The notes under the pieces are model-generated. The model was given only the letters and a program-made list of their open reading frames with translations, had not been told where the DNA came from and searched no databases. A stretch of DNA of 64,000 nt, taken from the IMG/VR virus record IMGVR_UViG_3300045998_000148, positions 35,878-99,877 of that record. One strand, written 5' to 3'. The stretch comes from a virus. Made by a program: the position numbers and the translations under genes. Positions within the stretch are counted from its first letter, which is position 1; every line of letters starts with the position of its first letter. Positions 12,260 through 51,112 of this stretch are shown piece by piece.

Positions 12260-13372
12260 ATGCCTACTGCTGCCAAGACAGCAGCGCGATCCCGCATGGC
12301 CGCACGACCTGACAGCAGTGCGACCCAAGGAAACGCGCATCAAAAGACTTTGCGCCATCGGTTCTACCGCGACGACCTGCTCTACCGCGCCGACGTAAAG
12401 AAGAAAGAGACAGTCCCCACCCTCGTCCTGTTTGCAGGGGGCGGGCTGGCCGATATCGGCTTACAGGCAGCGGGATTCGAGCCGATCGCCGCCGTCGAGA
12501 AAGACCCCGCGATCGCCGCTTGCTATCGCCTCAACCACGGCGAACGGGTAATCGAAGCAGACTGCAATGCAATCGACTACAAGCAATTCGGCAGGGGTTG
12601 GGCGAAAGCGATTTGGTGCAGTCCGCCCTGTCAGCAGTGGTCGCAAGCTCGCGATAAGGCGCTGCCCTGCCGCGAGGATGGCGACGTCAGCGATGCCATA
12701 ATCCGCGCAATCGCCGAGATCGAGCCGCAGTATTTCTTTTTGGAAAACGTGCGGGGATACCTCAAGTCTCCGGCCTACGCCGCAATAATAAGCTGGCTGT
12801 TTGCCTCCGGCTATGGCGTCGATGCCCGCGTCTACAACGCCGCCAACTACGGCGTACCGCAAAACCGACTGCGCCTGGTCGTGCGAGCCGTTCGCGATCG
12901 GGTCGTCCTTCCCTACCCCCCTACTCGCAACCCGCAGAAGGTCGGCTGGTTTGAGGCGATCGCCCCTCAATTGAGTGAATGCCCGCAAGTCGAACTCGCC
13001 AACTGGCAGAAGCACAAGTTATTCCAGCAGTACCCCGCCTTTTTCCTTTCCGAAAAGACGGAGAAGGGGCGTGCGCTCGTCCCCCGCGTCGGCTTTCGAG
13101 GAGATAAGCTGCCCCTATACACCGAACAAAAGACCGCTCCCACCCTGCGAGCGCTGGGTCACGACCGACATTGGCGGCAACTCGACGCGATTGCCTGGGA
13201 CGAACACCACCGCCTGTCCTCGGTACAAGCCGTCTCGCCTCGCTGTTTTGCAATCCTGCAATCCGTCCCCAAATGGTACGCCCTGCCGGAAGACAACTGC
13301 GACGCCACCCGCATTATCGGCAACGGCGTACCTCCCCTCCTCGCCTACGCGATCGCCACCTCCTTATTGTGA
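12260..13372 (+). CDS. DNA (cytosine-5) methyltransferase
   Basis: 370 aa. C5-methyltransferase motifs occur in order: motif I LFAGGGLADIGL (about 54-65), motif IV SPPCQQWS with the catalytic Cys (about 122-129), motif VI FLENVRGY, motif VIII PQNRLRLVV, and motif X IIGNGVPPLLAYAIA at the C-terminus. The variable region between VIII and X is short, so the recognition site cannot be read. The enzyme probably protects phage DNA from host restriction. The first 45 residues are not part of the fold and include a fragment of the palindromic repeat (TQGNAHQK), so a later start is possible. It is the first large gene of a plus-strand block inside the minus-strand late region. Confidence 0.9.
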   Translation: MPTAAKTAARSRMAARPDSSATQGNAHQKTLRHRFYRDDLLYRADVKKKETVPTLVLFAGGGLADIGLQAAGFEPIAAVEKDPAIAACYRLNHGERVIEADCNAIDYKQFGRGWAKAIWCSPPCQQWSQARDKALPCREDGDVSDAIIRAIAEIEPQYFFLENVRGYLKSPAYAAIISWLFASGYGVDARVYNAANYGVPQNRLRLVVRAVRDRVVLPYPPTRNPQKVGWFEAIAPQLSECPQVELANWQKHKLFQQYPAFFLSEKTEKGRALVPRVGFRGDKLPLYTEQKTAPTLRALGHDRHWRQLDAIAWDEHHRLSSVQAVSPRCFAILQSVPKWYALPEDNCDATRIIGNGVPPLLAYAIATSLL

Positions 13373-14509: not shown

Positions 14510-14970
14510 TCTCTTGGTGCGCTTTCCCCTGGCGAGGACGCCTCGCCGGGTTCGCACCGCTCTCTTGGTGCGCTTTCCCCTGGCGAGGACGCCTCGCCGG
14601 GTTCGCACCGCTCTCTTGGTGCGCTTTCCCTTGGCACGATACCTTGCTCCTGCAAGAAAGCAGCAATTTTAGCGGAAGCATCCGCGTGGCCGCAGGCAAC
14701 CAGGCAGATATAGCCGCTTTGTTCGAGCAGCCGGATAAATTGCTGCTCTTGCGTCGAAAGTTCGCTCTTGCGGTAGCGCGACTGGACGGTAAGGAACAGC
14801 CGCCACTCGGGAACGAACAGGTCGGGCAGGGAAGAGAGCGAACCGAGCGCCTTGAGCCGCCTTATACTCTCGCCGCTAAAGGCGTGCGGTCGAGGCAGGG
14901 CGCAGATCAGCTCCGCAAAATTTTGGCGGAACCACTCGACCGTCAATTTCTGCTCGTGATACCTGCTCAA
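14494..14970 (-). CDS. VRR-NUC-like protein with repeat-derived tail
   Basis: 158 aa, TTG start. Residues 45-115 resemble the VRR-NUC (PD-D/ExK) fold: SLPDLFVPEWRLFLTVQSRY, then KSELSTQEQQFIRLLEQSGY and a closing helix. In active members the Glu and Lys of the E-x-K pair lie in the strand that here reads LFLTVQ, so both appear replaced (Thr, Gln). This suggests loss of nuclease activity or my misalignment. The last 45 residues are two 17-residue copies of the palindromic repeat (RERCEPGEASSPGESAP). It lies just after the endolysin gene, in the same direction. Confidence 0.5.
   Translation of the reverse strand: MSRYHEQKLTVEWFRQNFAELICALPRPHAFSGESIRRLKALGSLSSLPDLFVPEWRLFLTVQSRYRKSELSTQEQQFIRLLEQSGYICLVACGHADASAKIAAFLQEQGIVPRESAPRERCEPGEASSPGESAPRERCEPGEASSPGESAPRDQANS
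14511..14640. repeat. 51-bp palindromic repeats, second site
   Basis: Two full 51-bp units and part of a third share the core CTTGGTGCGCTTTCCC, GGCGAGGACGCCTCGCC and GGTTCGCACCG. They form the 3' end of the VRR-NUC-like gene and touch the end of the convergent gene. The same family occurs at 7596, here as a slightly different version. Confidence 0.85.
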
Positions 14971-22930: not shown

Positions 22931-22979
22931 CTGCTGATTTTGCAGCGCGATCGCCCCCGCTTCCGCCAGGGATTTATTG
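22931..22979 (-). repeat. 49-bp displaced copy of part of a distant gene
   Basis: 48 of 49 bases match 53003-53051, where they code the NKSLAEAGAIALQNQQ stretch of the membrane/coiled-coil gene at 52898-53419. Here it is non-coding, in the same orientation, and sits between the operon promoter and a 20-bp repeat array. Confidence 0.9.
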
Positions 22980-22980
22980 T

Positions 22981-23175
22981 CTACTTACCGACTTTATTAT
23001 CTATTTACCGACTTTATTATCTATTTACCGACTTTATTATCTATTATTTGCCGAATTACCTACTTACCGACTTTATTATCTATTTACCGACTTTATTATC
23101 TATTTGCCGAAGTATTTATTTACTGACTTTATTACCTACTTGCCAACTTTATTATCTATTTACCGACTTTATTAT
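22981..23175. repeat. 20-bp tandem array, iteron-like
   Basis: Ten contiguous units of the type CTATTTACCGACTTTATTAT tile this stretch; seven are exact or nearly so, three are degenerate and 18-19 bp long. It is AT-rich in an otherwise GC-balanced region and fills most of the 344-bp gap between the Cas8-like operon and the next gene. Iterons for replication initiation or an array of repressor sites are the two main readings. Confidence 0.85.
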
Positions 23176-23197
23176 CTTGCGTTTTTCAAAGAAAGCG

Positions 23198-34107: not shown

Positions 34108-34186
34108 TTGACGCTATACCGATTTAATCGGTATGATTGGCTAAACTGATTTATTTATCGCGGCTAAAATGCCGCTAGGGGATTGC
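34108..34186 (+). promoter_or_regulatory. Cassette 1 promoter, operator and leader
   Basis: TTGACG (34108-34113), 18-bp spacer, TATGAT (34132-34137). The palindrome TATACCGATT/AATCGGTAT(G) spans spacer and -10. The leader hairpin GCGGC-TAAAAT-GCCGC (34160-34175) is followed at once by AGGGG, the ribosome-binding site for the ATG at 34187. The hairpin and the SD are adjacent, which could influence initiation. Confidence 0.8.
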
Positions 34187-34516
34187 ATGAATTTAAAAGA
34201 CGCCTATCGGCTAGGGTACGATCGCGGCTATAGTATCGCCGATTATATGGAATTGCCCTACGATCGCGGGTTGGAGGAAGCGATCGAATATCTAGAAACT
34301 AATTTTCAAGAAATCGAAGATAACGATCGATCGTTTTCGCCATTCGAGTTTACAGCGAGAGATCTAAACAATTCTCGCGATCCTTATCGTTACTGGGAAG
34401 AATTCGATCGCGGGATAAACAACGGGTTGAGAAAAAAAATTAGAGAGATTAGATCTCAGATCCCTATAACTAAAGGACTGCTAGGGGGAGTCAGTATAGG
34501 GGAGATGTTTAAATAA
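34187..34516 (+). CDS. Cassette 1: unknown small acidic protein
   Basis: 109 aa, rich in Asp, Glu and Tyr (RLGYDRGYSIADYMELPYDR, YLETNFQEIEDNDRSF), with a basic patch KKIREIRSQIP. I chose the ATG at 34187 behind AGGGG; the ATG at 34169 in the leader hairpin is in frame but lies upstream of that site. No family was recognised. Acidic composition plus context suggest an anti-defence or host-takeover role (inference). Confidence 0.7.
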   Translation: MNLKDAYRLGYDRGYSIADYMELPYDRGLEEAIEYLETNFQEIEDNDRSFSPFEFTARDLNNSRDPYRYWEEFDRGINNGLRKKIREIRSQIPITKGLLGGVSIGEMFK

Positions 34517-34539
34517 AATAAACAGATATATATAGATCG

Positions 34540-34568
34540 GCGATCGCAATGGGCGATCGCTTTTTTTT
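34540..34568 (+). terminator. HIP1-based terminator, cassette 1
   Basis: Two HIP1 octamers (GCGATCGC at 34540-34547 and 34553-34560) form an 8-bp stem with a 5-nt loop, followed by eight T. Confidence 0.85.
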
Positions 34569-34573
34569 CGCTG

Positions 34574-34815
34574 GCTACAGATCGCCGCTACAGATCGCCG
34601 CTACAGATCGCCGCTACAGATCGCCGCTACAGATCGCCGCTACAGATCGCCGCTACAGATCGCCGCTACAGATCGCCGCTACAGATCGCCGCTACAGATC
34701 GCCGCGACCGCCGCTACAGATCGCCGCCACAGATCGCCGCTACAGATCGCCGCCACAGATCGCCGCTACAGATCGCCGCTACAGATCGCCGCCACAGATC
34801 GCCGCTACAGATCGC
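34574..34815. repeat. 13-bp tandem array 1
   Basis: About 18 units of 13 bp, consensus GATCGCCGCTACA, with a few GATCGCCGCCACA variants and one GATCGCCGCGACC insertion. It fills the gap between the terminator of cassette 1 and the promoter of cassette 2. The period of 13 makes long false open frames on both strands. Confidence 0.95.
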
Positions 34816-34839
34816 TTTTTATTGCCGCTTCTATTTTTA

Positions 34840-34916
34840 TTGCCGCTATACCGATTTAATCGGTATAATAGGATCGAGTTTATTTATCGCGGCTAAAATG
34901 CCGCTAGGGGGTTTTT
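34840..34916 (+). promoter_or_regulatory. Cassette 2 promoter, operator and leader
   Basis: TTGCCG (34840-34845), 18-bp spacer, TATAAT (34864-34869). Perfect palindrome 34847-34867 (arms TATACCGATT and AATCGGTATA, 1-bp centre). Hairpin GCGGC/GCCGC at 34889-34904, then AGGGGG before the ATG at 34917. GCCGCTTCTATTTTT just upstream of -35 is conserved among cassettes 2-8. Confidence 0.85.
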
Positions 34917-35537
34917 ATGAGTATTGATGTTACTGCCTACGATCGCGATATCGATCTATTGCAAGAGATAAAAGGATTTTACGATAGGCTAGAAAAAGAT
35001 GTAGAGCCAGCAAAACTCTATCCTGCCTATCTTCAATATTCTGATTACAGCGGTAGCCTAGTCGAGCGATCTAATGTTGAGTGTTTTTTAGAGAATTTTG
35101 GAGATGTTGAGGGGGTTACGACTGAAAGCGGCGTATATGGATATGAAGCGATCGCGATATCGGCGATCGCCTTTAGGGGCGATCGCGGCGCTGAAATACA
35201 GGAAACACTAGACGCGCTAAGCGATTACCCTTTAATTTCCGATGATCATTATACGGAATTATGCGAGGAAATTTTTTCTGTGTGTTGGGGGGAAGATGGA
35301 TATTCCGATTTTATTAGAGAACTAAAGAAAAAATTCGACCTAAGCGATACTACTGCTGAGTTTTTAGAAAAAATTCCGCTATTAGAGCTGTATTATGACG
35401 CGATCCCATCAGGAGAATATTATATAGACGAAAACCCCCAGTACATATACATTCCGATCGATCGCGCGGTTGATAATATCGATCGAGATACGCTGGCTCA
35501 TTACATTAAAGAGCAAAAAGCGAAAAAATCGATCTAA
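34917..35537 (+). CDS. Cassette 2: acidic phage protein of a recurrent hypothetical family
   Basis: 206 aa, strongly acidic. The stretch YSDYSGSLVERSNVECFLEN, then GVYGYEAIAISAIAF, LDALSDYPLISDDHYTELCEE and CWGEDGYSDFI follows a pattern I recognise from many phage hypotheticals (DYSGS-x-VERSN ... L-x-DYPL-x-x-x-D-Y), whose function I do not know. Strong AGGGGG ribosome-binding site. Its single-gene unit has its own promoter and terminator. Confidence 0.75.
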   Translation: MSIDVTAYDRDIDLLQEIKGFYDRLEKDVEPAKLYPAYLQYSDYSGSLVERSNVECFLENFGDVEGVTTESGVYGYEAIAISAIAFRGDRGAEIQETLDALSDYPLISDDHYTELCEEIFSVCWGEDGYSDFIRELKKKFDLSDTTAEFLEKIPLLELYYDAIPSGEYYIDENPQYIYIPIDRAVDNIDRDTLAHYIKEQKAKKSI

Positions 35538-35561
35538 GCGCTATTCTCTATTGAGTTTTAA

Positions 35562-35593
35562 CGATCGCCTATTATGGGCGATCGCTTTTTTTT
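35562..35593 (+). terminator. HIP1-based terminator, cassette 2
   Basis: Stem CGATCGCC (35562-35569) / GGCGATCG (35577-35584), then eight T. Confidence 0.85.
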
Positions 35594-35594
35594 A

Positions 35595-35911
35595 GCTACA
35601 GATCGCCGCCACAGATCGCCGCCACAGATCGCCGCCACAGATCGCCGCCACAGATCGCCGCTACAGATCGCCGCGACCGCCGCTACAGATCGCCGCCACA
35701 GATCGCCGCTACAGATCGCCGCCACAGATCGCCGCTACAGATCGCCGCTACAGATCGCCGCTACAGATCGCCGCTACAGATCGCCGCCACAGATCGCCGC
35801 GACCGCCGCTACAGATCGCCGCGACCGCCGCTACAGATCGCCGCTACAGATCGCCGCTACAGATCGCCGCTACAGATCGCCGCGATCGCCGCCACAGATC
35901 GCCGCGATCGC
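35595..35911. repeat. 13-bp tandem array 2
   Basis: Roughly 24 units of GATCGCCGC(T/C)ACA with three GATCGCCGCGACC interruptions and two GCGATCGC ends. It occupies nearly all of the gap between cassette 2 and cassette 3. Confidence 0.95.
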
Positions 35912-35935
35912 TTTTTATCGCCGCTTCTATTTTTA

Positions 35936-36009
35936 TTGACTTATACCAATTAAAGGGGTATAATGGCGGCTATAAGCTAATCGCGGCTAAAATGCCGCTA
36001 GGGGAATAA
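35936..36009 (+). promoter_or_regulatory. Cassette 3 promoter, operator and leader
   Basis: TTGACT (35936-35941), 17-bp spacer, TATAAT (35959-35964). Imperfect operator TATACC...GGTATA. Leader hairpin GCGGC/GCCGC, then AGGGG ahead of the ATG at 36010. The ATG inside the hairpin opens a five-codon frame MPLGE ending just before the gene start. Confidence 0.85.
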
Positions 36010-36423
36010 ATGCGCGGCTATAAGATTCAAGATATGTATATTCGCTTTGACGATAACAATCGCGATCGTCTGATAGTGCTAACAGCAAGGCGATTGTATA
36101 ATCATTTTATTTGTGAAGGCGATCCCGTCCTGCGCTGTTTTACAGTTTCCAATGGGACGGACTCCGGCAAAAAAGTCCTGTGGCAGTACGCATTTACTAA
36201 TACAAAACTGTCCGTAAAGGACAGTTATTCTGACAATAACAATAATAGACTACAAACGTTTGAAGTCGGTCGAGAAGGGTCTGGCCCTGAGACTTCCGTA
36301 TATTGGGCCGCGTATTTAAACGACTGCCCAATAGACTTAAACTACAGGCTAACACTGTTTAGGGATGAAGATCACACTTATTCAAATTGGGTAAATAGGC
36401 TAAAAAACAAATATCTTAATTAA
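36010..36423 (+). CDS. Cassette 3: unknown protein
   Basis: 137 aa, less acidic than its neighbours. It looks like a single beta-rich domain (YIRFDDNNRDRLIVLTARRL, KKVLWQYAFTNTKLSVKDSY) with a C-terminal SNWVNRLKNKYLN. GC content is visibly lower and HIP1 rarer than in the late genes. No family recognised. Confidence 0.7.
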   Translation: MRGYKIQDMYIRFDDNNRDRLIVLTARRLYNHFICEGDPVLRCFTVSNGTDSGKKVLWQYAFTNTKLSVKDSYSDNNNNRLQTFEVGREGSGPETSVYWAAYLNDCPIDLNYRLTLFRDEDHTYSNWVNRLKNKYLN

Positions 36424-36444
36424 CCCACTGTTCTTATGGATCGG

Positions 36445-36474
36445 CGATCGCCTATTATGGGCGATCGTTTTTTT
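36445..36474 (+). terminator. HIP1-based terminator, cassette 3
   Basis: Stem CGATCGCC (36445-36452) / GGCGATCG (36460-36467), then seven T. Confidence 0.85.
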
Positions 36475-36478
36475 ATGC

Positions 36479-36549
36479 CTACAGATCGCCGCTACAGATC
36501 GCCGCGACCGCCGCTACAGATCGCCGCTACAGATCGCCGCGATCGCCTA
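36479..36549. repeat. 13-bp tandem array 3 (short)
   Basis: Five units of the GATCGCCGCTACA family with one GATCGCCGCGACC interruption, ending in GCGATCGCC. Confidence 0.9.
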
Positions 36550-36574
36550 TTTTTTTTTGCCGCTTCTATTTTTA

Positions 36575-36649
36575 TTGCCGCTATACCGATTAAAGGGGTA
36601 TAATGGCGGCTATAAACTAATCGCGGCTAAAGTGCCGCTAGGGGAAAAT
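36575..36649 (+). promoter_or_regulatory. Cassette 4 promoter, operator and leader
   Basis: TTGCCG (36575-36580), 18-bp spacer, TATAAT (36599-36604), operator arms TATACCGAT / GGGGTATA. Leader hairpin GCGGC/GCCGC and AGGGG before the ATG at 36650. Confidence 0.85.
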
Positions 36650-37186
36650 ATGATTGCAGTAGCCACCAGAAACAATCCCGCGATCTATATCGCTGACCTT
36701 GCCGCCTATAACGCGGGTATCCTGTCTGGCGAGTGGATCGACGCGGATCGAGAAGCAGACGAGATCCACCAGGATATAGTCGATCTGCTTTCCAGATCGC
36801 CCATCCAAAACGCTGAAGAGTATGCGATCCACGACTCAGAGGGGTTTTTTGGCTTAAAAATACATGACTTTGAATCGCTCGCAAAAATAGCGGAATATGG
36901 GCAAGCGATCGCCGAATTCGGGCGATCCGCCGCCGCTTTTATCGATTATCAGGGGGAATGGGATCGAGAGGCTTATCTAGACGCCTATATTGGCGAATAT
37001 GACAGCGAAGCTGATTTCTGCTATGCGCGGCTAGAGGAAACCGGAGAACTAGAGGCGATCGAAAAAGTCGCACCTAGCGCGGCTGCCTATATCGATTTTG
37101 AGGCAGTGGCTAGAGACTGGTTTCTAAGCGATTTTTGGGAAACTAAAGGCGATTCTGGCAAAATTTTAGTTTTCTATCGATGGTAG
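36650..37186 (+). CDS. ardA: Cassette 4: ArdA-family antirestriction protein
   Basis: 178 aa, the usual ArdA length. Family motifs are clear: PAIYIADLAAYNAGILSGEW with IDADREADEIHQDI after it, SPIQNAEEYAIHDSEGFFGL near 65-85, AEYGQAIAEFG, AYIGEYDSEADFCYA near 122, and the C-terminal YIDFEAVARDWFLSDFW with a closing VFYRW. ArdA is an elongated acidic DNA mimic that occupies type I restriction-modification enzymes and is expressed on entry. This is the one cassette whose function is firm, and it anchors the reading of the array as an anti-defence island. Confidence 0.93.
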   Translation: MIAVATRNNPAIYIADLAAYNAGILSGEWIDADREADEIHQDIVDLLSRSPIQNAEEYAIHDSEGFFGLKIHDFESLAKIAEYGQAIAEFGRSAAAFIDYQGEWDREAYLDAYIGEYDSEADFCYARLEETGELEAIEKVAPSAAAYIDFEAVARDWFLSDFWETKGDSGKILVFYRW

Positions 37187-37214
37187 TAAGCAATTAGATA
37201 GAGGTTGTTCTGTA

Positions 37215-37243
37215 GCGATCGCCCATTGCGATCGCTTTTTTTT
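37215..37243 (+). terminator. HIP1-based terminator, cassette 4
   Basis: GCGATCGC (37215-37222), loop CCATT, GCGATCGC (37228-37235), eight T. Confidence 0.85.
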
Positions 37244-37422
37244 GGCTACAGATTGCCACGATCGCCACTACAGATCGCCGCTACAGATTGCCACGATCGC
37301 CACTACAGATCGCCGCTACAGATTGCCGCTACAGATCGCCGCTACAGATCGCCACTACAGATCGCCGCTACAGATTGCCGCGATCGCCGCTACAGATTGC
37401 CGGATCGCCGCCACAGATCGCC
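37244..37422. repeat. 13-bp tandem array 4 (diverged)
   Basis: The same repeat family as arrays 1-3 but with GATTGCCGC and CACGATCGCC variants, so periodicity is less strict. It lies between cassettes 4 and 5. Confidence 0.9.
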
Positions 37423-37449
37423 TGTTTTTTTGCCGCTTCTATTTTTTTA

Positions 37450-37522
37450 TTGACGCTATACCGATTTAATCGGTATAATAGGATCGAATTTATTTATCGC
37501 GGCTATGCCGCTAGGGGATTAA
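37450..37522 (+). promoter_or_regulatory. Cassette 5 promoter, operator and leader
   Basis: TTGACG (37450-37455), 18-bp spacer, TATAAT (37474-37479). Perfect palindrome 37457-37477, same arms as cassette 2. Hairpin shortened to GCGGC-TAT-GCCGC, then AGGGG before the ATG at 37523; the hairpin ATG opens MPLGD and a stop. Confidence 0.85.
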
Positions 37523-37963
37523 ATGCGATTAATTGAAACGCGGGTATATAGAATAGAAGAACACCCAGATAGGGAAGCGTGTTATAGGTGGATTCGCACC
37601 AACTGGGAAGATCTGACCGAACATAATGTTTGTGAGGTAGCGGACAGCATAAAAGCGCTGAGCGAGAAAATAGGCGGCACTCACAAGTATTGCATTTGCC
37701 CGCTATCCGATCCCCGTGAATACGTTATTTTTGAGGATTTTAGCCGCAAAAAACTAAACGCCTTAAACCCCTATAATTGCCCACTAACGGGGGTTTGTTG
37801 GGATATCGATTTAATTACCGGACTCAGAGAGGGAAACCCCGACAAAGTGCTGGAAGCGTTGCACCGTGAAACCGAATATCAGTATTCTGATGAGGGGCTT
37901 TTTGATATGTGCATGGCAAATGAATATGAATTTGACGAAAGCGGGGTTTTAGCAGCTCATTAG
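37523..37963 (+). CDS. Cassette 5: phage protein of a recurrent hypothetical family
   Basis: 146 aa. The N-terminus RLIETRVYRIEEHPDREACY and the end ALHRETEYQYSDEGLFDMCM then ANEYEFDESG resemble a phage family whose C-terminus reads (E/Y)-x-EY-x-Y-x-SDE ... ANEYEF-x-x-x-G. Homologues are often labelled toxin-antitoxin-like, without proof that I know of. Three Cys/His pairs in HKYCICPLSD and CPLTGVCWDID are notable. It has its own promoter and terminator. Confidence 0.75.
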   Translation: MRLIETRVYRIEEHPDREACYRWIRTNWEDLTEHNVCEVADSIKALSEKIGGTHKYCICPLSDPREYVIFEDFSRKKLNALNPYNCPLTGVCWDIDLITGLREGNPDKVLEALHRETEYQYSDEGLFDMCMANEYEFDESGVLAAH

Positions 37964-37985
37964 ATAGCCGTCAACTATAAAATAG

Positions 37986-38016
37986 GCGATCGCCTGTTAT
38001 GGGCGATCGCTTTTTT
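37986..38016 (+). terminator. HIP1-based terminator, cassette 5
   Basis: GCGATCGCC / GGCGATCGC stem with TGTTATG loop, then six T. Confidence 0.85.
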
Positions 38017-38045
38017 CTGCCTGCGCTTGCCGCGATCTTTTTTTT

Positions 38046-38148
38046 GGCTACAGATTGCCGGATTGCCGCCACAGGCTACAGGCTACAGGCTACAGGCTAC
38101 AGGCTACAGGCTACAGGCTACAGGCTACAGGCTAGCCGCGATCGCCTG
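38046..38148. repeat. 7-bp tandem array between cassettes 5 and 6
   Basis: GATTGCCGGATTGCCGCC followed by about nine copies of the heptamer ACAGGCT and then GCCGCGATCGCC. The 13-bp unit is replaced by a heptamer at the same position in the cassette plan. Confidence 0.9.
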
Positions 38149-38172
38149 TTTTTTTTGCCGCTTCTATTTTTG

Positions 38173-38254
38173 TTGACCTGTACTAATTAAAGCGGTATAA
38201 TGGCGGCTATAAACAAACTAATCGCGGGCGGTTGACCGCCCTTACTGTACTGTT
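38173..38254 (+). promoter_or_regulatory. Cassette 6 promoter with variant leader
   Basis: TTGACC (38173-38178), 17-bp spacer, TATAAT (38196-38201). The operator is weak (TACTAATTAAAGCGGTATA). The leader hairpin is different: GGGCGG-TTGA-CCGCCC, without an AGGGG box. Confidence 0.75.
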
Positions 38255-38827
38255 ATGTCTGACAAAAAACTCACGGATCGAATCGAAAAAGCGGTTTATA
38301 CAATTGCGATCGCCGATGCCCGAATATTTTTCGAGGAATGGCAAGAGCCGTTAGATTCAGCGGCTACCGATTGGGACGCCGTTACCTGGGACTGGTCTAG
38401 CGCAGTAGTAACCGAGATCGATGAAAGCGCCGATCCCGAGATCTATTGGGATCTTTACAGTGCCACTCTAGAGGCGGAAACCAAGCGCCTTTCAAGTGAA
38501 TTTGATTCGAGATTTCAGATTAAAACGGATTTTTACGAGCTAGAGGTTATCGGCACTGAATTTGACAATCGCCATAATATTGTAATTCGCTTGCCTAAAA
38601 TTAGAATCACCTATCTCGAATCTAACAAAACCGGATTTTATAAGGAGATCTTGGCAAAACTCCGACAAATCGATCCGAACCTGTCCTATAGATTCAATCC
38701 CCTAACAGTTGATACGGCGGAAGGCGATCGGTGTATAGGATTAATTGAAACCGCCCCCATCAGTGAAAGTGAGCGCCTAGCCTATGAGCTGGCACGAGAT
38801 TGCGGCTATGACGTCATCAGCGCTTGA
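38255..38827 (+). CDS. Cassette 6: unknown acidic protein
   Basis: 190 aa, acidic N-terminal half with a Trp-rich segment (FFEEWQEPLDSAATDWDAVT, TWDWSSAVVTEIDESADPEI), then a mixed beta part (KIRITYLESNKTGFYKEILA) and a C-terminal helix SERLAYELARDCGYD. No Shine-Dalgarno sequence is obvious, unlike cassettes 1-5. No family recognised; DNA mimicry is possible from the charge pattern. Confidence 0.7.
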   Translation: MSDKKLTDRIEKAVYTIAIADARIFFEEWQEPLDSAATDWDAVTWDWSSAVVTEIDESADPEIYWDLYSATLEAETKRLSSEFDSRFQIKTDFYELEVIGTEFDNRHNIVIRLPKIRITYLESNKTGFYKEILAKLRQIDPNLSYRFNPLTVDTAEGDRCIGLIETAPISESERLAYELARDCGYDVISA

Positions 38828-38879
38828 ACACCCCCCCCGATCGAGTGAGTAGGGGGCATTAGTGACAGCTAGCCTACAG

Positions 38880-38911
38880 GCGATCGCCCATTGCGGGCGG
38901 TCGTTTTTTTT
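38880..38911 (+). terminator. Terminator, cassette 6
   Basis: CGATCGCC (38881-38888) / GGCGGTCG (38896-38903, one G-U pair), then eight T. The next promoter follows without a tandem array. Confidence 0.8.
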
Positions 38912-38927
38912 GCCGCTTCTATTTTTG

Positions 38928-38985
38928 TTGACCTATACCGATTAATCAGGTATATTGACTCTAGTTGTTTATTTAGGTGGTTTCA
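38928..38985 (+). promoter_or_regulatory. Cassette 7 promoter and operator
   Basis: TTGACC (38928-38933), 17-bp spacer, TATATT (38951-38956). Operator 38934-38954 with arms TATACCGATT and AATCAGGTATA. The leader lacks the GCGGC hairpin; TTAGGTGG serves the ATG at 38986. Confidence 0.8.
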
Positions 38986-39333
38986 ATGCGCGATCGAGGA
39001 GAGCTTATCGCTTTGCTGAAAGCCCTAGATCTGGAATTTGCCAGACTGGGGATCTCTGTCGATGACGATCCCTATAACGGGATCATGGCGGGATTGGCCC
39101 ATGAAGAGGGCGATCGAGAAGAGGGCGAGGAGATCCCCCCGATTGTAAATCTAGCTGCGCTTTCAGCGCTTGTAACGCTTTTTGACGATCGTGCGAGCGG
39201 CGATTACTATGGAATGCCGTTACTAAATTTTTTAAAAACCCTGCAACCGGAGGAGATAACGCTAGAAAGGGATAGCGAGACTATAGTTAAAAACAATTTC
39301 TGGCAGCTTATCAGTCAATTTGAAGCACGATAA
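38986..39333 (+). CDS. Cassette 7: unknown acidic protein
   Basis: 115 aa from the ATG at 38986; an ATG nine bases earlier lies before the ribosome-binding site. A helical N-terminus (RGELIALLKALDLEFARLG) is followed by a very acidic centre (EEGDREEGEEIPP) and a helical LAALSALVTLFDDRASGD. No family recognised. Confidence 0.7.
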   Translation: MRDRGELIALLKALDLEFARLGISVDDDPYNGIMAGLAHEEGDREEGEEIPPIVNLAALSALVTLFDDRASGDYYGMPLLNFLKTLQPEEITLERDSETIVKNNFWQLISQFEAR

Positions 39334-39354
39334 CAAAAAAAATACATAGATCGG

Positions 39355-39379
39355 CGATCGCCCATTGCGGGCGGTCGTT
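39355..39379 (+). terminator. Terminator, cassette 7
   Basis: CGATCGCC / GGCGGTCG stem, then eight T, followed directly by the conserved GCCGCTTCT block of the next promoter. Confidence 0.8.
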
Positions 39380-39402
39380 TTTTTTGCCGCTTCTTTTTTT
39401 TG

Positions 39403-39464
39403 TTGACGAGCATCAATTAAAACGGTATAATGGGGGCATAGCTGAATTAATCGGAGCTAATACC
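39403..39464 (+). promoter_or_regulatory. Cassette 8 promoter
   Basis: TTGACG (39403-39408), 17-bp spacer, TATAAT (39426-39431). Only the right operator arm (CGGTATA) is kept. A CGGAGC box precedes a GTG start. Confidence 0.75.
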
Positions 39465-39671
39465 GTGAATTTACCAGATAATGAAATATATCAAATTTAT
39501 ATCGGGGGAATAGATCCCCGTGATTTTGTCGGCAATTGCGAAACGACAGAGCAGGCGGTCAGCGATTTTATTGATAATTGGCCGTGGGGGGGAGAGCCGA
39601 TCCCCTCTGGGTTAGCCGATACTCTCGTGAGATATATCGATAGACAGATTGAATATTATCGAGGACTGTAA
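39465..39671 (+). CDS. Cassette 8, first gene: small unknown protein
   Basis: 68 aa with a GTG start; acidic, with YQIYIGGIDPRDFVGNCETT and a C-terminal helix TLVRYIDRQIEYYRGL. The open frame extends upstream into the promoter, so the GTG after CGGAGC is the reasonable start. It is followed two bases later by the next gene, the only two-gene cassette of the array. Confidence 0.6.
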   Translation: MNLPDNEIYQIYIGGIDPRDFVGNCETTEQAVSDFIDNWPWGGEPIPSGLADTLVRYIDRQIEYYRGL

Positions 39672-39673
39672 TC

Positions 39674-39979
39674 ATGGCGGAAAAATACGGATCGAAATTT
39701 ACCGATCTCCTTTTTTACATAGCTTGGATAGTAGACGATTCCGGCAATGGAAGGCGATCTGGATCGGACGCCTGCCAGGAAGTAGATAGCAGCACTGTTT
39801 TAGTGTGCTATCAAAGCGGGTTTGAGCCTTCCATAGTAGCCGTTAAAGGCTTTTTTGAGGACGATCCCGATCAATTGTCAGACTCCGAAGCTGAGGAGTT
39901 AGCGCAAGAGTACCTTTTGGCGATTGGTTGGCTAACAGAGCCAAAAGCCTGCGATAGCATAATCCGATCGTATGAGTAG
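39674..39979 (+). CDS. Cassette 8, second gene: small acidic protein
   Basis: 101 aa. FTDLLFYIAWIVDDSGNGRR, a middle VLVCYQSGFEPSIVAVKGFF and an acidic helical end (DDPDQLSDSEAEELAQEYLL). It starts two bases after the preceding stop and is probably co-translated. No family recognised. Confidence 0.65.
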   Translation: MAEKYGSKFTDLLFYIAWIVDDSGNGRRSGSDACQEVDSSTVLVCYQSGFEPSIVAVKGFFEDDPDQLSDSEAEELAQEYLLAIGWLTEPKACDSIIRSYE

Positions 39980-40006
39980 GGGGCATTAGTGACAGCCAAC
40001 CTACAG

Positions 40007-40037
40007 GCGATCGCCCATTGCGGGCGGTCGTTTTTTA
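40007..40037 (+). terminator. Terminator, cassette 8 (end of array)
   Basis: GCGATCGCC / GGCGGTCG stem with six T. The text from 38852 to 38911 (TAGGGGGCATTAGTGACAGC onward) is nearly duplicated here at 39976-40036. A single GGCTACAGGCTAGCC remnant of a repeat array follows. Confidence 0.8.
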
Positions 40038-40180
40038 TTGGCTACAGGCTAGCCGCGATCGTCCGCCTCTCTAGTGCCAATGATACCGCAAAAGGAAAGA
40101 CGCAAACGCCTTTATTCACGGGCATCGAGCGGCAATCATACCGATTTAAAAAAATAAAATTAGAATGCTCCTAAAATTTA

Positions 40181-40232
40181 TTGACAAAAAAAAAGAACGC
40201 CCCTATAATTCTATTATACCTTTTTAAAAGGT
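40181..40232 (+). promoter_or_regulatory. Consensus early promoter with related operator
   Basis: TTGACA (40181-40186), 17-bp spacer rich in A, TATAAT (40204-40209): a full consensus match. Just downstream lies ACCTTTT-T-AAAAGGT (40218-40232) within TATACCTTTTTAAAAGGTG, which shares the TATACC...GGT outline of the cassette operators. Confidence 0.85.
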
Positions 40233-40259: not shown

Positions 40260-40439
40260 ATGCTCACGCGCTATAGGGGCGTTGCGATTGTCGCCCGTCC
40301 CGAGTCGCCCCCAGTCGGGCGGTTAATTTGGCAAGTAGAGGCGATCGGTGGCTCTTGCGAGGGCTTTTGCTCTCTCGAAGCGGCGATCGCCGAGATCGAA
40401 AAAATAAATCAATCTAAAACAATAGGAGTAACGCAATGA
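40260..40439 (+). CDS. Small protein opening the early operon
   Basis: 59 aa (starting MLTRYRGVAIVARPESPPVG), preceded by CAGGAG eight nt from the ATG and ending in an ATGA overlap with the next gene. It is a small alpha/beta protein (LIWQVEAIGGSCEGFCSLEA, then a helix AAIAEIEKI). Promoter, ribosome-binding site and coupling all support it as real. Function unknown. Confidence 0.75.
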   Translation: MLTRYRGVAIVARPESPPVGRLIWQVEAIGGSCEGFCSLEAAIAEIEKINQSKTIGVTQ

Positions 40440-45536: not shown

Positions 45537-45694
45537 CTTGAGGCGATCGGATGGCGATCGCCTTCCCCATTCATTCAGCCAGTGCCGCCAGAGCTTTCCC
45601 GCCTTTGGCGGTTCGGGCAAGATGCCAGCAACAAGATCGCTTTTGCTTCCGCTTTTGCTTCCGCCTTCAAAAAAATTACCGAGAAAAATTTGTC

Positions 45695-48600
45695 ATGTCT
45701 AAAAAAGCAATTACGGGCGCGATCGCCGCGATTTCGTCTTTAAAGTCCGAGCGCCCCGATCCGGGTTGCCTCATGCAGTTCCAAGGATGGGGCAACTGTA
45801 AAGCCCTTTTCGCAGGCGATAGCACGAGCGAGATCGCCCAATACCTGTTAGACGTGCCAGCTAACGCGCCAAATAAAAAGGATTGGCTGTTAGAGGCAAG
45901 GCGGCAACTTCGAGACTTGCTGACCCCTGCGGAGTGGCAGCAAGCGAGGGGATCGGCGCTGACTAGCTACTTCACCCCACCCCATTTAATTGATGCCCTT
46001 TGGAAGGCGGTTCGGCAGATCGGCTTTGATTTTGGCAGGGTTTTAGAGCCGGGATGCGGGCGCGGCGATTTTATCGCAAGATCGAATCTCGCGCAGCAGT
46101 CTTTCTTCGGGATCGAATCCGACCCCATTACGGCGGCGATCGCCCAAGCGCTCAATCCGAATGCCGCCATCTACAATAAAACGCTCGAAGGCGTCGATTT
46201 TCCCGATGGCTATTTTGACCTGGCGATCGGCAACGTCCCCTTTGGTTCTTATCGGGCGACCGATCCGCGCTATGCTCAACTCGGCGGCAACATACACGAG
46301 TATTTTCTCGCCAAGTCGCTCGATTTGGTACGCCAGGGGGGGATCGTCGCACTGATCGTACCCGTTTCCCTCTTCCAGCGAAAAAATCCATCTTTTCGCC
46401 GCTATGTCGGCGGCTACGAAGATCGGGTGCAAGTCTCTATTGCCAAAAAGGAACGAGATCGCCTGCGCCAAGAGGCCAAAAGGTCGGGCATGGACTCTAA
46501 GACCTCCATCCCAAGCTACAAATACGAGCGCTTCCGCTACGGCGGGATCGCCAAATTGGTAGAGGTAATCTGGCTGCCAGACAGCACTTTTGAGGGGACG
46601 CAAGCCCAGGCCGCGATCGCCGTCTTTCAAAAGAACAGACAAGGCGACTTTAAGCCCTGGACGGAAACGACCGAATTTTCCATAAACTTTGCCGCCTTCG
46701 AGCGCGATCGCGCACCCCAAACGGTGCGAGTCAACCGTTTTTTTGAAAGGGAGCTGCGCCTGCGGCAGGTGGACGGCATAAATCGACTTGTCAATGCAAG
46801 CAGCGATCCGATGTTCGATGACCCGCCCCGCTTTTTGGGCAGTCCCGATATCAACCCGCTTTACGGCGAAGGGCTGAGTTGCGCCGATAGCGGGCGCGAT
46901 ATCGCCGCCGATATTGCAGCTATTTTTAAATGGACGCCGAAGGTTTACGGCCAACCCATCGATCGGATATTCGACGGCCAAATCCTATCGCCGGAGATGC
47001 AGGATCTCCGAGAGGGAGAGTTTGTCTTTCATGAAGGCCGCCATTACTTCAGGAAAGAAGCACTCTTAAAACCCGTCCCGACAGTGACAGAGTTTGTCTA
47101 TCGCGGCAAGAAATACACGATCGACCGGACGGGCGACCGCATCGCCGATTTTATTCGACTTGCCAGCGCGACCGAACGGCTGGCACGGGCGCAGTCCGAC
47201 CCCGCGCCGATCGCGCCGCTACAGACCGTCTGCCGCATTTTTTATGCTACTTTTGTCCGGCGTTGGGGGCATTTCAAGCAAAAGGGCTTCAATGCTAACG
47301 AGGTGCTACTATCGGGCGACCCGCGCTATGCGCTGACAGCCGAACTCGAACGCTGGGACGGCGATCGCGTCGTGCCGTCGCCCATCCTGACCGAGCGCAT
47401 CGGGCGCGTTTACGGCGAACCGGAAACCTGCGACAATCCCCGCGATGCCATTATCGCCAGCTTGAATCGATTCGGACGCATCGATATAAATTACGTCGCT
47501 CGATTGCTTGGCGATACCGTCGAGCGCCTGTCTGAATACCTCGCTCACAAACAACTTGCCTTTTTCGACCCCGACAAGGGCGACTGGGCCTTTTGTGACG
47601 AATACCTCTCCGGCAACCTGCGGGAGAAGATCGCATCGGCACTCTCTCATTCCGGTTCCCTCGACCTGGCTGCCAATATTAAAGCCCTGCGGTCGGCACT
47701 GCCCAAGCCGATCTTGCCTCGCACCCCCGACCGCGAGCTAGCGATCGAGTGTTTGGAAGATCTCGACATTCCCGTAGCGGAATTAGACGAGCGCGAGCTA
47801 TCGGAATACCTCGATCGCCGATTTACGGTCGAGCTTGGCGCAACCTGGATTGCGCCGGAAGTTTACGCCCGTTTTGCCCGCGAGCGATTGGAAATAAAAA
47901 TTATCGAGGTGAGCTACTTGCCGCCGATTGCTACTTTTTTCGTTTCCGGCGATAGCCGCGACCGCTCGCAATGGGGGACGGAAGACATGACTTCCCTTCA
48001 AGTTTACGATTGCGCCTTAAATTTAAAGCGCCCCCGCATTGTCAGGCGGAATGCCGATGGCAGCTTTGACTACCACAATTCCGAGCTGGCAACCCGCATG
48101 GTTGTTGCCAAAATAGAGGACATGAACCGCGATTTTGTCGATTGGATTTGGAGCGATCGCAAGCGCACGATCGAGGTTTCCACCCTCTACAACCTCAATA
48201 TAAATTCCTGTATGCCGCGTCAATTTACAGGAGATTGGTTGGAGTTGCCCGGACTCAACCCCGCCATCGAACTCTATCCCTGGCAGCAGCGCGGCATCGC
48301 TCGAATCCTGCAATCTCAATCTACTTTTTTGAGCTGGTGTGTTGGGGCGGGCAAGACTTTGGCGCTGATTGTCGCCGCCGAAGAAATGCTGCGGCTAGAC
48401 ATGGCTCGCCGCCCTATCGTCGTCGTGTTAAATGGAACGGAAGGGCAGTTTTTAAACGAGTGGAAGGTAGCCTATCCCGCTTCTAACGTCGCACTATGCC
48501 CTCGCGCCAAAAAAGACCGCACTTCTTTTTTAGCTTCTCTGCCGCACCGTACCAAGGGGGCAATCGTCATGACTCACTCGCAATTTTTCATGCTCCGAGT

Positions 48601-51112
48601 AAGTCGAGAATATCAGCTCGCTTTTTTAAATTTCGAGAAGGATATGCTAGTAGACGCCTTGAATACTATCTCAAGGGAAGCGCGGGCGATCGGCGGCACT
48701 CAGCGCACGACCGAGCGCACCTTGCAACAGCACTTGAAGCGATTGCAGGCTAAGATCGACCGCGTTCTGATGAGTCAATCCAAACACGATGAGTTTGATT
48801 TCGAGTCACTGGGAATTGACTCCATCTTTTTTGATGAATTTCACGTCAATAAGCGCTTTCCGATTCAGACCAAACAGCAAGGCGTTCGCGGCATTCCCTC
48901 GGGCGATTCTCAGCGGGCGATCGATACCTATTGCAAGCTGGCCTACACTTTGGGTCAATTTTTTGCCGACCTCAAGCACGAGGTAAAGGGCAAGGTTGTC
49001 GCCGCTACTGGGACGATGCTTTCAAACACGATTGCTGAGATATACGTCTGGCAGCGAATGTTGCAGTTGCCCCTACTCGAAAAAATGGGTACGACTCACT
49101 TCGATGCTTGGGCATCTCAATTTGTCGAAATTAGTTCCGACCCAGAGGTTAAACCTGACGGGCGCTATGAGATGACCGATCGGATGAAGAGTTTCTATAA
49201 TATTCGCGTCTTACGCGCCCAAGTCGAGCAATTTGTCGATTTCTTTACCCCTAAAGACCTCGATGACGCCGCCATTGTCGCCAAGCCGACCGCGCATTAC
49301 ATCGATTGCGTCTGTCCGCCTAGCGAAGCACAAAAGCAATTTCTCAAGACTGCCCTGCGGCGGGCGGTTGCCATTCGCAGGCGGCAGGTTACGCCCGAAG
49401 AGGACAATATGCTCGTGCTGACCACCGATTTGATTAAGGCCAGTTTGAGCGTCCGACTCCTTTGCTGGAAGGAACCCCAACTCGACAATAAGATTCACTC
49501 CCTCGCCCTTAACGTCCTGTTTATTTATCGGGAAACCAACGGGACGCAACTTATTTTTTGCGACCTCTCTACCGATAAGGGGGAAGGCGAATTTAGCGTC
49601 TATCGCTACATCCGCGAGCTGCTGGTCGCCTGCGGCATCCCCGCCGACGAGATCGAGTACGCTCAAGACCACAAAAACGTCGAGCGCCGCAACGAATTGC
49701 GCGATCGCGTCAATCGCGGCGAAGTTCGCATCGTCATTGGCTCGACGGCTACGCTGGGGACGGGCTGCAATTTTCAAGAGTGGGGGCTGCACGCCCTTCA
49801 TCACCTCGACGCGCCGCACCGCCCGACTGACCTCGAACAGCGCGAGGGGCGCGGCATCCGCCAGGGGAACGGCAAAAATCAACTGGGGGAGGATACGACT
49901 TTTGCCTACTGTCTCGTCTTTCGCTACATTACCGAACGGCTCGATTCCCTGCGCTGGCAGGCGCTTCAAAATAAACGCAATATGATCGTCCAGTTTTTTG
50001 AAGGCCGCGACATCGACCAATTGCTCGAAATAAGCGAAGAAGAACGCCCCCTGACCTACGAAGAGGTCAAGGCACTCGCGACGGGCAATCCCCTACTTAC
50101 CGAAGATGCCCGACTTCGCAAGGAACTCGACGGCCTTCTCGCCCGCCAGCATCAATTTAATACGACTCGCCATCGCATTGCTTGGGATTTGAAGGCGATC
50201 TCTTCTCAAATAAAGGGCACGCTTTCTAAAATTGACGCAATTGAAGATTTTTTCCTCGCTCAAGGCGAGCCGACCCCCAGAACTCAATTGCAGTTCTTTG
50301 GGCTGGAACCCTGTAAGGTTCCCCTCGGCGATGCTCTCCGCCTCGGCCATACTTTTCGCGCCGTCGCCAATCAACTTAAGGGCAGGCGGCACGATATCTA
50401 CCCCATTATTTGCAAGCTGGGCAAGCTGGCGATCGCCCTCGAACATCAGACAATATACGGTTATACGTTCGTGCTGATAGGCAGTGCCATTGCAAAGGGC
50501 GAGGCAGTCGGGGAAAATACGGCAGATCGGCACTGCGAGGGCTTTACTATTAAGCTAAAGCAATTGACGGGCAAGCAAAATAGAAGCTATGACCTCAAGA
50601 GCAACAGCACGCCGGATGAGGCCGAACGAATTGGCGCTCAATTGCAGAAAATTTACCGCTTCGCCCTTTTGGATTGGCGCGATCGCCTGGTCGATGTCGT
50701 CTCTCACTTAAATCACAGTCAGATGCAGTTAGAACGGCAGCAATCACAAGGGGCTTTTTCTCAGAGCGATCGCATCTTGGAGGTGCGCGATCGCCTTGCT
50801 GAAATTGCAGAACTGCTGAAAGAAGATCGCGACATCCTCGAATTTGAAAAGGAAGAAGACCGCCCCATCGTTTACGATGACCTGGATTTTTCCCCAACCG
50901 AGTTTACCGTCCGCTATCTCCTGCACGGGCTAACTCAGTTTCAACCCGATTGGGCTTCCCTTCTCTCTCAAACGGTGACGAAATCGCGCTCTGGGGTGCT
51001 GCCCCTGAATGTTCGCGACGATGCTATCGAGGATGACGATTCCGACGATTCCGACGATTCCGACGATTCCGACGATTCCGACGCTCTCCCTCTTACCTGG
51101 CAGGTTAATTAG
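45695..51112 (+). CDS. Giant DNA methyltransferase-helicase fusion, DarB-like
   Basis: 1805 aa. N6-adenine methyltransferase domain near residues 90-230: TPPHLIDALW, VLEPGCGRGDF (motif I), FGIESDP and IGNVPFGSY (motif IV, NVPF for NPPY). Helicase domain near 870-1400: YPWQQRGIARIL, Walker A CVGAGKTLAL near 881, DEFH near 1047, GRGIRQGNG near 1385. The C-terminal 400 residues are helical with a Ser/Asp tail. This layout is that of phage P1 DarB and related phage/plasmid proteins, which shield incoming DNA from type I restriction or modify it. Start ATG 45695; the open frame extends to 45551 through a low-complexity leader. Confidence 0.85.
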   Translation: MSKKAITGAIAAISSLKSERPDPGCLMQFQGWGNCKALFAGDSTSEIAQYLLDVPANAPNKKDWLLEARRQLRDLLTPAEWQQARGSALTSYFTPPHLIDALWKAVRQIGFDFGRVLEPGCGRGDFIARSNLAQQSFFGIESDPITAAIAQALNPNAAIYNKTLEGVDFPDGYFDLAIGNVPFGSYRATDPRYAQLGGNIHEYFLAKSLDLVRQGGIVALIVPVSLFQRKNPSFRRYVGGYEDRVQVSIAKKERDRLRQEAKRSGMDSKTSIPSYKYERFRYGGIAKLVEVIWLPDSTFEGTQAQAAIAVFQKNRQGDFKPWTETTEFSINFAAFERDRAPQTVRVNRFFERELRLRQVDGINRLVNASSDPMFDDPPRFLGSPDINPLYGEGLSCADSGRDIAADIAAIFKWTPKVYGQPIDRIFDGQILSPEMQDLREGEFVFHEGRHYFRKEALLKPVPTVTEFVYRGKKYTIDRTGDRIADFIRLASATERLARAQSDPAPIAPLQTVCRIFYATFVRRWGHFKQKGFNANEVLLSGDPRYALTAELERWDGDRVVPSPILTERIGRVYGEPETCDNPRDAIIASLNRFGRIDINYVARLLGDTVERLSEYLAHKQLAFFDPDKGDWAFCDEYLSGNLREKIASALSHSGSLDLAANIKALRSALPKPILPRTPDRELAIECLEDLDIPVAELDERELSEYLDRRFTVELGATWIAPEVYARFARERLEIKIIEVSYLPPIATFFVSGDSRDRSQWGTEDMTSLQVYDCALNLKRPRIVRRNADGSFDYHNSELATRMVVAKIEDMNRDFVDWIWSDRKRTIEVSTLYNLNINSCMPRQFTGDWLELPGLNPAIELYPWQQRGIARILQSQSTFLSWCVGAGKTLALIVAAEEMLRLDMARRPIVVVLNGTEGQFLNEWKVAYPASNVALCPRAKKDRTSFLASLPHRTKGAIVMTHSQFFMLRVSREYQLAFLNFEKDMLVDALNTISREARAIGGTQRTTERTLQQHLKRLQAKIDRVLMSQSKHDEFDFESLGIDSIFFDEFHVNKRFPIQTKQQGVRGIPSGDSQRAIDTYCKLAYTLGQFFADLKHEVKGKVVAATGTMLSNTIAEIYVWQRMLQLPLLEKMGTTHFDAWASQFVEISSDPEVKPDGRYEMTDRMKSFYNIRVLRAQVEQFVDFFTPKDLDDAAIVAKPTAHYIDCVCPPSEAQKQFLKTALRRAVAIRRRQVTPEEDNMLVLTTDLIKASLSVRLLCWKEPQLDNKIHSLALNVLFIYRETNGTQLIFCDLSTDKGEGEFSVYRYIRELLVACGIPADEIEYAQDHKNVERRNELRDRVNRGEVRIVIGSTATLGTGCNFQEWGLHALHHLDAPHRPTDLEQREGRGIRQGNGKNQLGEDTTFAYCLVFRYITERLDSLRWQALQNKRNMIVQFFEGRDIDQLLEISEEERPLTYEEVKALATGNPLLTEDARLRKELDGLLARQHQFNTTRHRIAWDLKAISSQIKGTLSKIDAIEDFFLAQGEPTPRTQLQFFGLEPCKVPLGDALRLGHTFRAVANQLKGRRHDIYPIICKLGKLAIALEHQTIYGYTFVLIGSAIAKGEAVGENTADRHCEGFTIKLKQLTGKQNRSYDLKSNSTPDEAERIGAQLQKIYRFALLDWRDRLVDVVSHLNHSQMQLERQQSQGAFSQSDRILEVRDRLAEIAELLKEDRDILEFEKEEDRPIVYDDLDFSPTEFTVRYLLHGLTQFQPDWASLLSQTVTKSRSGVLPLNVRDDAIEDDDSDDSDDSDDSDDSDALPLTWQVN

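Follow-up and report, generated by a model that had tools for sequence, protein, structure and literature searches.

We analysed a 64,000-nt stretch of viral DNA (hereafter the window; positions 35878-99877 of the 99,877-bp IMG/VR virus record IMGVR_UViG_3300045998_000148, which has no end repeats) and describe here an array of small genes at window positions 34108-40037. Nine genes are arranged as eight units, the last of which is bicistronic (genes 8 and 9). Each unit runs from a block, GCCGCTTCTATTTTT, through a -35 hexamer, a dyad extending into the -10 hexamer, a leader and the gene to a terminator with a HIP1 (GCGATCGC) stem, followed in gaps 1-5 by a tandem-repeat array (Table 1). A sequence-only reading of the window had described nine unrelated small genes in eight like-built units, with tandem arrays in five gaps; eight promoters and eight terminators in register, the lack of any similar protein pair and the five arrays located uphold that description.

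Layout of the units and their products

A near-consensus sigma-70 promoter and a HIP1-based hairpin terminator are present in 8/8 units, and each gap from 1/2 to 7/8 holds a terminator and then a promoter. All of these promoters and terminators are among the top matches of scans that returned 18 promoter-like sites (10.6 +/- 3.2 in shuffles) and 21 terminator-like sites (7.8 +/- 3.2). With strong promoters defined by at least 10 of 12 matches, on both strands of the whole 99.9-kb record, 12 are found, nine of them inside 34108-40209. The ninth of the region, at 40181, serves the next gene after the array; window positions 40181-40232 hold a full-consensus promoter (TTGACA-17-TATAAT) and then a palindrome, ACCTTTTTAAAAGGT, without the block, and the gene served is a small one at 40261.

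The block and the dyad are found in the array only. The 15-bp block has seven copies in the record (six exact, one with one mismatch), all in the array, against 0.1 expected from Markov simulations. The 21-bp dyad TATACC-N9-GGTATA, with up to two mismatches, also has seven copies in the record, all in units 1-7; across the 99.9 kb, a perfect 10-1-10 palindrome appears just twice, as the operator of unit 2 and as that of unit 5. The evidence for an operator comes from the left half-site, since the right one coincides in part with the -10 hexamer; the left half-site is retained across units in spite of a variable dyad centre. The plan that the sequence-only reading ascribed to all units is complete for promoter and HIP1 terminator, but the block is only degenerate in unit 1 (GCCGC-GATAATTTTATTGACG), the operator is weak in unit 8, whose dyad has no clear left half-site, and the leader motif GCGGC/GCCGC is common to units 1-5 only. 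Gaps 6/7 and 7/8 are the simplest, with the terminator fused directly to block and promoter, and are 98% identical over 48 nt. An RNA switch in the leader hairpin was considered and dropped, the leader folds being not clearly better than shuffles, and an Rfam search of the window gave no match. At window positions 34549-34896 and 35574-35939, the 13-bp repeats are open in one frame and produce mechanical open reading frames (ORFs) of 115 and 121 amino acids (aa), which are probably not genes.

Table 1. Features of the array in window coordinates (pI, isoelectric point)
Feature	Coordinates	Strand	Description
P1	34108..34137	+	TTGACG-18-TATGAT, first hexamer at 34108; 21-bp dyad 34115-34135; degenerate block immediately upstream
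Gene 1	34187..34516	+	109 aa, pI 4.8; relatives in Pseudanabaena phages PA-SR01 (46%) and Pam2 (39% identity)
T1 terminator	34539..34568	+	HIP1 stem and T run
Tandem array, gap 1/2	34574..34815	.	13-bp unit GCTACAGATCGCC x 18.9
Block GCCGCTTCTATTTTT and P2	34824..34869	+	TTGCCG-18-TATAAT, first hexamer at 34840; perfect 21-bp palindrome 34847-34867
Gene 2	34917..35537	+	206 aa, pI 4.2; weak PHROG 3906 match, one weak phage match
T2 terminator	35562..35592	+	terminator scan
Tandem array, gap 2/3	35595..35905	.	13-bp unit x 25
Block and P3	35920..35964	+	TTGACT-17-TATAAT, first hexamer at 35936; dyad 35942-35962
Gene 3	36010..36423	+	137 aa, pI 8.4; no family match
T3 terminator	36443..36476	+	terminator scan
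Tandem array, gap 3/4	36479..36547	.	short; 13-bp unit as in gaps 1/2 and 2/3
Block and P4	36559..36604	+	TTGCCG-18-TATAAT, first hexamer at 36575; dyad 36582-36602; chimeric, left P2-like, right P3-like
Gene 4, ArdA	36650..37186	+	178 aa, pI 4.2
T4 terminator	37214..37243	+	terminator scan
Tandem array, gap 4/5	37245..37422	.	13/35-bp units
Block and P5	37432..37479	+	TTGACG-18-TATAAT, first hexamer at 37450; perfect 21-bp palindrome 37457-37477
Gene 5	37523..37963	+	146 aa, pI 4.7; weak PHROG 5162/10310 matches
T5 terminator	37984..38016	+	terminator scan
Tandem array, gap 5/6	38071..38134	.	7-bp unit ACAGGCT x 9
Block and P6	38157..38201	+	TTGACC-17-TATAAT, first hexamer at 38173; imperfect dyad 38179-38199
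Gene 6	38255..38827	+	190 aa, pI 4.4; no family match
3' flank of unit 6	38837..38909	+	73 nt, 95% identical to 39964-40036; holds counterpart of gene 9 last codons, starts 9 nt past gene 6 stop
T6 terminator	38878..38911	+	within 3' flank of unit 6
Block and P7	38912..38956	+	TTGACC-17-TATATT, first hexamer at 38928; dyad 38934-38954
Gene 7	38986..39333	+	115 aa, pI 4.2; no family match
T7 terminator	39353..39385	+	fused directly to unit 8 block, as in gap 6/7
Block (1 mismatch) and P8	39386..39431	+	TTGACG-17-TATAAT, first hexamer at 39403; no clear left half-site
Gene 8	39465..39671	+	68 aa, GTG start, pI 4.1; no family match
Gene 9	39674..39979	+	101 aa, pI 4.1; shares unit 8 with gene 8; no family above cut-off
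3' flank of unit 8	39964..40036	+	gene 9 last codons (RSYE-stop) and T8; counterpart of 38837-38909
T8 terminator	starts 40005	+	within 39964..40036 flank of unit 8
Apparent broken ninth spacer	40037..40149	+	GGCTACAGGCTAGCCGCGATCG common with 38123; half-operator ATACCGATTTAA at 40138 without block or -35

The nine products (68-206 aa) are mutually unrelated, with a best pairwise E-value of 0.18. The product of gene 4 is ArdA, matching the Pfam profile over positions 1-144 of 155 (E 1e-28, 101 bits against a cut-off of 27) and the anti-restriction family PHROG 2059 (E 4.5e-25); the ArdA family inhibits type I restriction, and its PHROG category is moron/host takeover. Eight of the nine products have a pI of 4.1-4.8, gene 3 being the exception at 8.4, whereas the median of the whole proteome is 6.6 (p ~1e-4). 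DNA mimics such as ArdA are acidic, but acidity on its own is no proof of DNA mimicry or of an anti-defence role. Both ArdA in unit 4 and the acidic composition of several products had been recognized in the sequence-only reading, and the anti-defence island it proposed is a hypothesis built on these two observations, with ArdA as one identified member; the other eight products have no family assignment. The GC content of the array genes is 40-49%, compared with 53% for the record. A plasmid search found no relative of the eight non-ArdA products, and AlphaFold models of genes 2 and 5 made without an alignment were unusable (predicted local distance difference test scores of 36 and 40). Separately, 5 kb downstream of the array, an 1853-aa protein (window 45551-51112, + strand) matches helicase C and, weakly, the Eco57I methylase; it is similar to the DarB-like antirestriction/Snf2 proteins of other phages, and is a second possible anti-restriction gene.

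Shared flanks and traces of recombination

Alignment of the units bears out the earlier observation that flanks are better conserved than genes. Between units, identity is 43-90% in the 92 nt that precede the start codon and 60-95% in the terminators, compared with 48-54% for coding DNA (shuffle mean 51%); promoter cores up to 100% identical stand beside genes at random identity. The 73-nt match between the 3' flanks of units 6 and 8 scores 65, against 16 for the best of 500 shuffles; therefore either a gene end was left behind in one of these flanks or a gene was joined to a flank already in place. In the chimeric promoter of unit 4, a single breakpoint inside the dyad accounts for 24 of 26 informative sites (clustering p 0.005), and a 190-nt stretch is common to the arrays of gaps 1/2 and 2/3 at 97% identity. 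The spacer fragment and half-operator left behind unit 8 (the apparent broken ninth spacer of Table 1) are a further trace. These observations indicate past recombination of the flanks, with exchange apparently at points within them.

Across units, the similarity matrices of promoters and terminators are uncorrelated (rho -0.16). Left and right flanks therefore do not travel together, and the array did not arise just by copying or moving entire units. This divides the earlier proposal that each gene was inserted with its own promoter and terminator: the units are autonomous as proposed, but their joint insertion is doubtful. No tyrosine integrase (PF00589) or serine resolvase was found in the record, both families being detected in control genomes. 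The sequence-only reading had likewise seen no integrase; its comparison with integrons is not sustained, given the lack of either recombinase and the units' own promoters.

Comparison with known systems and competing explanations

The record carries head genes, for a major head protein (PHROG 264, E 3e-26) and for a maturation protease, its closest terminase matches are in Planktothrix phage PaV-LD (44% identity) and Aphanizomenon phage CL131 (40%), and it contains HIP1 166 times (~16 per 10 kb), where base composition predicts 2. Because of these head genes, phage matches and HIP1 excess, the virus is, as judged from its genome, a tailed phage of a HIP1-rich cyanobacterium and a distant relative of PaV-LD. 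The closest capsid matches are again PaV-LD (27%) and CL131 (26%), to which the tape measure is also nearest; terminase, capsid and tape measure thus place the virus with PaV-LD/CL131-like cyanophages and not with T4-type phages.

Promoter early stem loops (PeSLs) of T4-type phages are reportedly the subject of work by Arbiol in 2010 and Comeau in 2014. In secondary descriptions they are mobile regulatory cassettes (PMC4503421), in which a stem-loop and a host-type early promoter are repeated between small genes of plastic regions and gene shuffling by recombination is proposed. The array presents the same arrangement, with a terminator and a host-type promoter in the gaps between small genes and this module repeated between unrelated genes. 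It differs from PeSLs, as those secondary accounts give them, in phage group and sequences, and adds an operator-like dyad, HIP1 terminators, a conserved block and tandem arrays. The array would work like a PeSL array, yet its phage is not of the T4-type family from which the definition of PeSLs comes.

A second parallel comes from archaeal viruses, in which anti-defence genes were predicted from the strong promoter that they share, accompanied in some viruses by an inverted repeat; some of these genes were confirmed (Bhoobalan-Chitty 2024, PMC11065993). As in the array, many small, mostly single genes of unassigned function lie there behind the same strong promoter, known anti-defence genes included, and in some of these viruses the inverted repeats are probably bound by a repressor. 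The array has a shared regulatory sequence and strong promoter before several small genes, with ArdA as its only known anti-defence member. The archaeal promoters are of a different kind, the text of that paper never uses the word 'terminator' and the passages concerned describe no repeat arrays; anti-defence activity was tested there for some genes, whereas the case here rests on sequence.

Other systems share single aspects. ESAS of cluster K mycobacteriophages (PMC3203893, PMC11373665) combines a SigA-like promoter, its -35 and -10 hexamers 17-18 bp apart, with an inverted repeat in an intergenic motif repeated before different small genes, but is coupled to a start-associated sequence, is scattered in the genome and forms no terminator array. 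Repeated intergenic promoter motifs also precede many genes of haloarchaeal viruses, those of HGTV-1 having been likened to PeSLs for the same layout (PMC3950731) and those of HF2 being proven active promoters (PMC8707807); these are archaeal viruses, however, the HF2 repeats keep their positions among relatives, and there are no HIP1 terminators. With PeSLs, HGTV-1 motifs, ESAS and archaeal anti-defence regulons on record, the earlier statement that no phage system of this layout had been described does not hold. What is new here is the dyad over the -10 hexamer, the HIP1 terminators, the upstream block and the tandem arrays, in a phage group for which we found no such report.

We consider the locus to be probably a PeSL-like regulatory array of early, and probably anti-host, genes in a tailed cyanophage. 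Each of the eight independent units would be read by host RNA polymerase from its strong host-type (SigA-like) promoter at once on entry, and the intrinsic terminators would insulate the units so that each small gene is expressed alone. The shared dyad over the -10 hexamer would probably be bound by one regulator switching the units together, whose simplest role would be to silence the early genes once a burst of expression is over. Homology for recombination would come from the repeated intergenic DNA (terminator, repeats, block and promoter), with the tandem arrays perhaps adding to its length; genes between the spacers could then be replaced over time while the flanks stay alike, by exchange with other phages through homologous recombination in the spacers. 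The products would probably be early host-takeover or anti-defence proteins, with ArdA as one identified member.

More tentatively, the locus may be a cyanophage anti-defence island, with one operator, eight insulated units and spacers acting as landing pads for homologous recombination. It would then be a counterpart of the archaeal shared-promoter regulons, and the majority of the eight unassigned proteins would inhibit cyanobacterial defences in ways not yet described. Such an island would acquire new anti-defence genes ready-wired. If this is right, the shared promoter and operator would be a search key for cyanophage anti-defence genes, as the conserved promoter is in archaeal viruses, and the eight small proteins would be named candidates for testing. 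PeSL-like gene shuffling would moreover extend to PaV-LD-type cyanophages, and a single genome would provide a compact case of readable recombination breakpoints in spacers.

Several points weigh against a PeSL-like array of early anti-host genes. No candidate regulator was found: there is no HTH_3 protein in the record, a Pfam search of 66 other small ORFs gave no candidate, although a regulator that is diverged or of another type may exist, and Pfam/HTH_3 searches of the genome did not find an Aca-like helix-turn-helix regulator. Eight of the nine products have no assigned function and no match to a defence family in Pfam, PHROG, PADLOC or NCBIfam. The breakpoint statistics are modest, since they come from short flank alignments and several pairs of units were compared. 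Finally, the searches described in the next section yielded no genome near enough to display an actual gene exchange.

The last point, together with spacers that clearly copy each other (as in the 190-nt array match) and a unit 1 flank as diverged as expected of an old unit, would suit concerted evolution without gene exchange, in which stable old early genes have flanks kept alike by function and gene conversion and nothing is mobile; no relative shows a gene swap. We nonetheless regard this as unlikely, as the relic of the last codons of gene 9 behind gene 6 implies that a gene was replaced or fused there, the GC content of the genes departs from that of the record, and the nearest sequenced relatives have neither the block nor a detected ArdA.

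Morons are single genes with their own promoter and terminator and a deviating base composition, usually found as isolated insertions with unrelated flanks. Promoters, terminators and a deviating composition of this kind are present in the array, and the PHROG category of ArdA agrees with them, so the genes could be lysogenic-conversion genes expressed from a prophage and not early in lytic growth. This is less probable still: the eight units stand in a row with homologous flanks, their common dyad suggests coordinated switching, and neither an integrase nor an HTH_3 repressor was found in the record, the ends of which are not proven.

The head-to-tail order and repeated flanks might also reflect tandem duplication of one promoter-gene-terminator unit whose genes then diverged past recognition, but this is very improbable given promoter cores as much as 100% identical next to genes at random identity, proteins that differ in length and composition with no similar pair, and uncorrelated promoter and terminator histories. 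An integron-like array of promoter-gene-terminator cassettes moved by a site-specific recombinase, to which unrelated genes in a row with conserved flanks would point, is the least probable of all, given the absence of both recombinase families, left and right flanks that do not co-vary, units with promoters of their own, which integron cassettes lack, and breakpoints at several places (promoter, 3' coding end).

Relatives and other features of the record

Searches for the array elsewhere gave little. An exact 15-mer flank scan of IMG/VR produced single chance matches only, a 21-mer flank scan none in IMG/VR and three single matches in unrelated bacterial genomes, and an exact scan with the operator pattern no match. 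The array as a whole had no blastn match in phages or plasmids, locus searches with one protein at a time (ArdA, DnaB, AAA ATPase, capsid) yielded no near relative, and a terminase profile search returned only relatives at the level of PaV-LD. The sequence-only reading had proposed looking in related cyanophage genomes for the same flanks around other genes; neither the block nor ArdA was found in 18 related or similar records (the ArdA model was silent in the control genomes of that run, yet detects the ArdA of this record), and the IMG/VR flank scans gave no relative.

Small sets of repeated promoters also precede different genes in PaV-LD and in two IMG/VR records (G005 and G008), with sequences unlike those of the array; all three lack a dense array, the block and an ArdA match. 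In PaV-LD and G005, the families of repeated promoter element are of the type AAAAATATTTT-AGAAAACGCTTGACA. In G008, as read by eye, a dyad GTAGTTG...CAACTAC spans the -35 and -10 hexamers upstream of different genes at 13670, 16024 and 22828; its plan is that of the array dyad and its sequence unrelated. Repeated upstream elements in a further relative were rejected as promoters, being short tandem repeats. The relatives of gene 1 in PA-SR01 and Pam2 lie within runs of small genes separated by different repeated stem-loop-like intergenic elements (69 nt at 87%, 33 nt at 94%), possibly another PeSL-like array. Small genes behind repeated regulatory elements thus seem to recur in cyanophages, with sequences specific to each lineage.

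For the DnaB helicase encoded upstream of the array and the AAA ATPase encoded downstream, the best matches are in phages of other bacteria. A C-5 cytosine methylase (window 12260-13372, + strand) is common to PaV-LD at 35% identity. The left end of the record (record positions 92-1774) codes for GAF and GAF-GGDEF signalling proteins and is either provirus-flanking host DNA or a set of acquired genes. Two separate tandem arrays of 51-bp units, apparently related to each other, lie at window positions 7595-7767 and 14510-14635, and an AT-rich 20-bp tandem repeat, TTTATTATCTATTTACCGAC x 10, occupies positions 22973-23177 inside the otherwise GC-richer genome.

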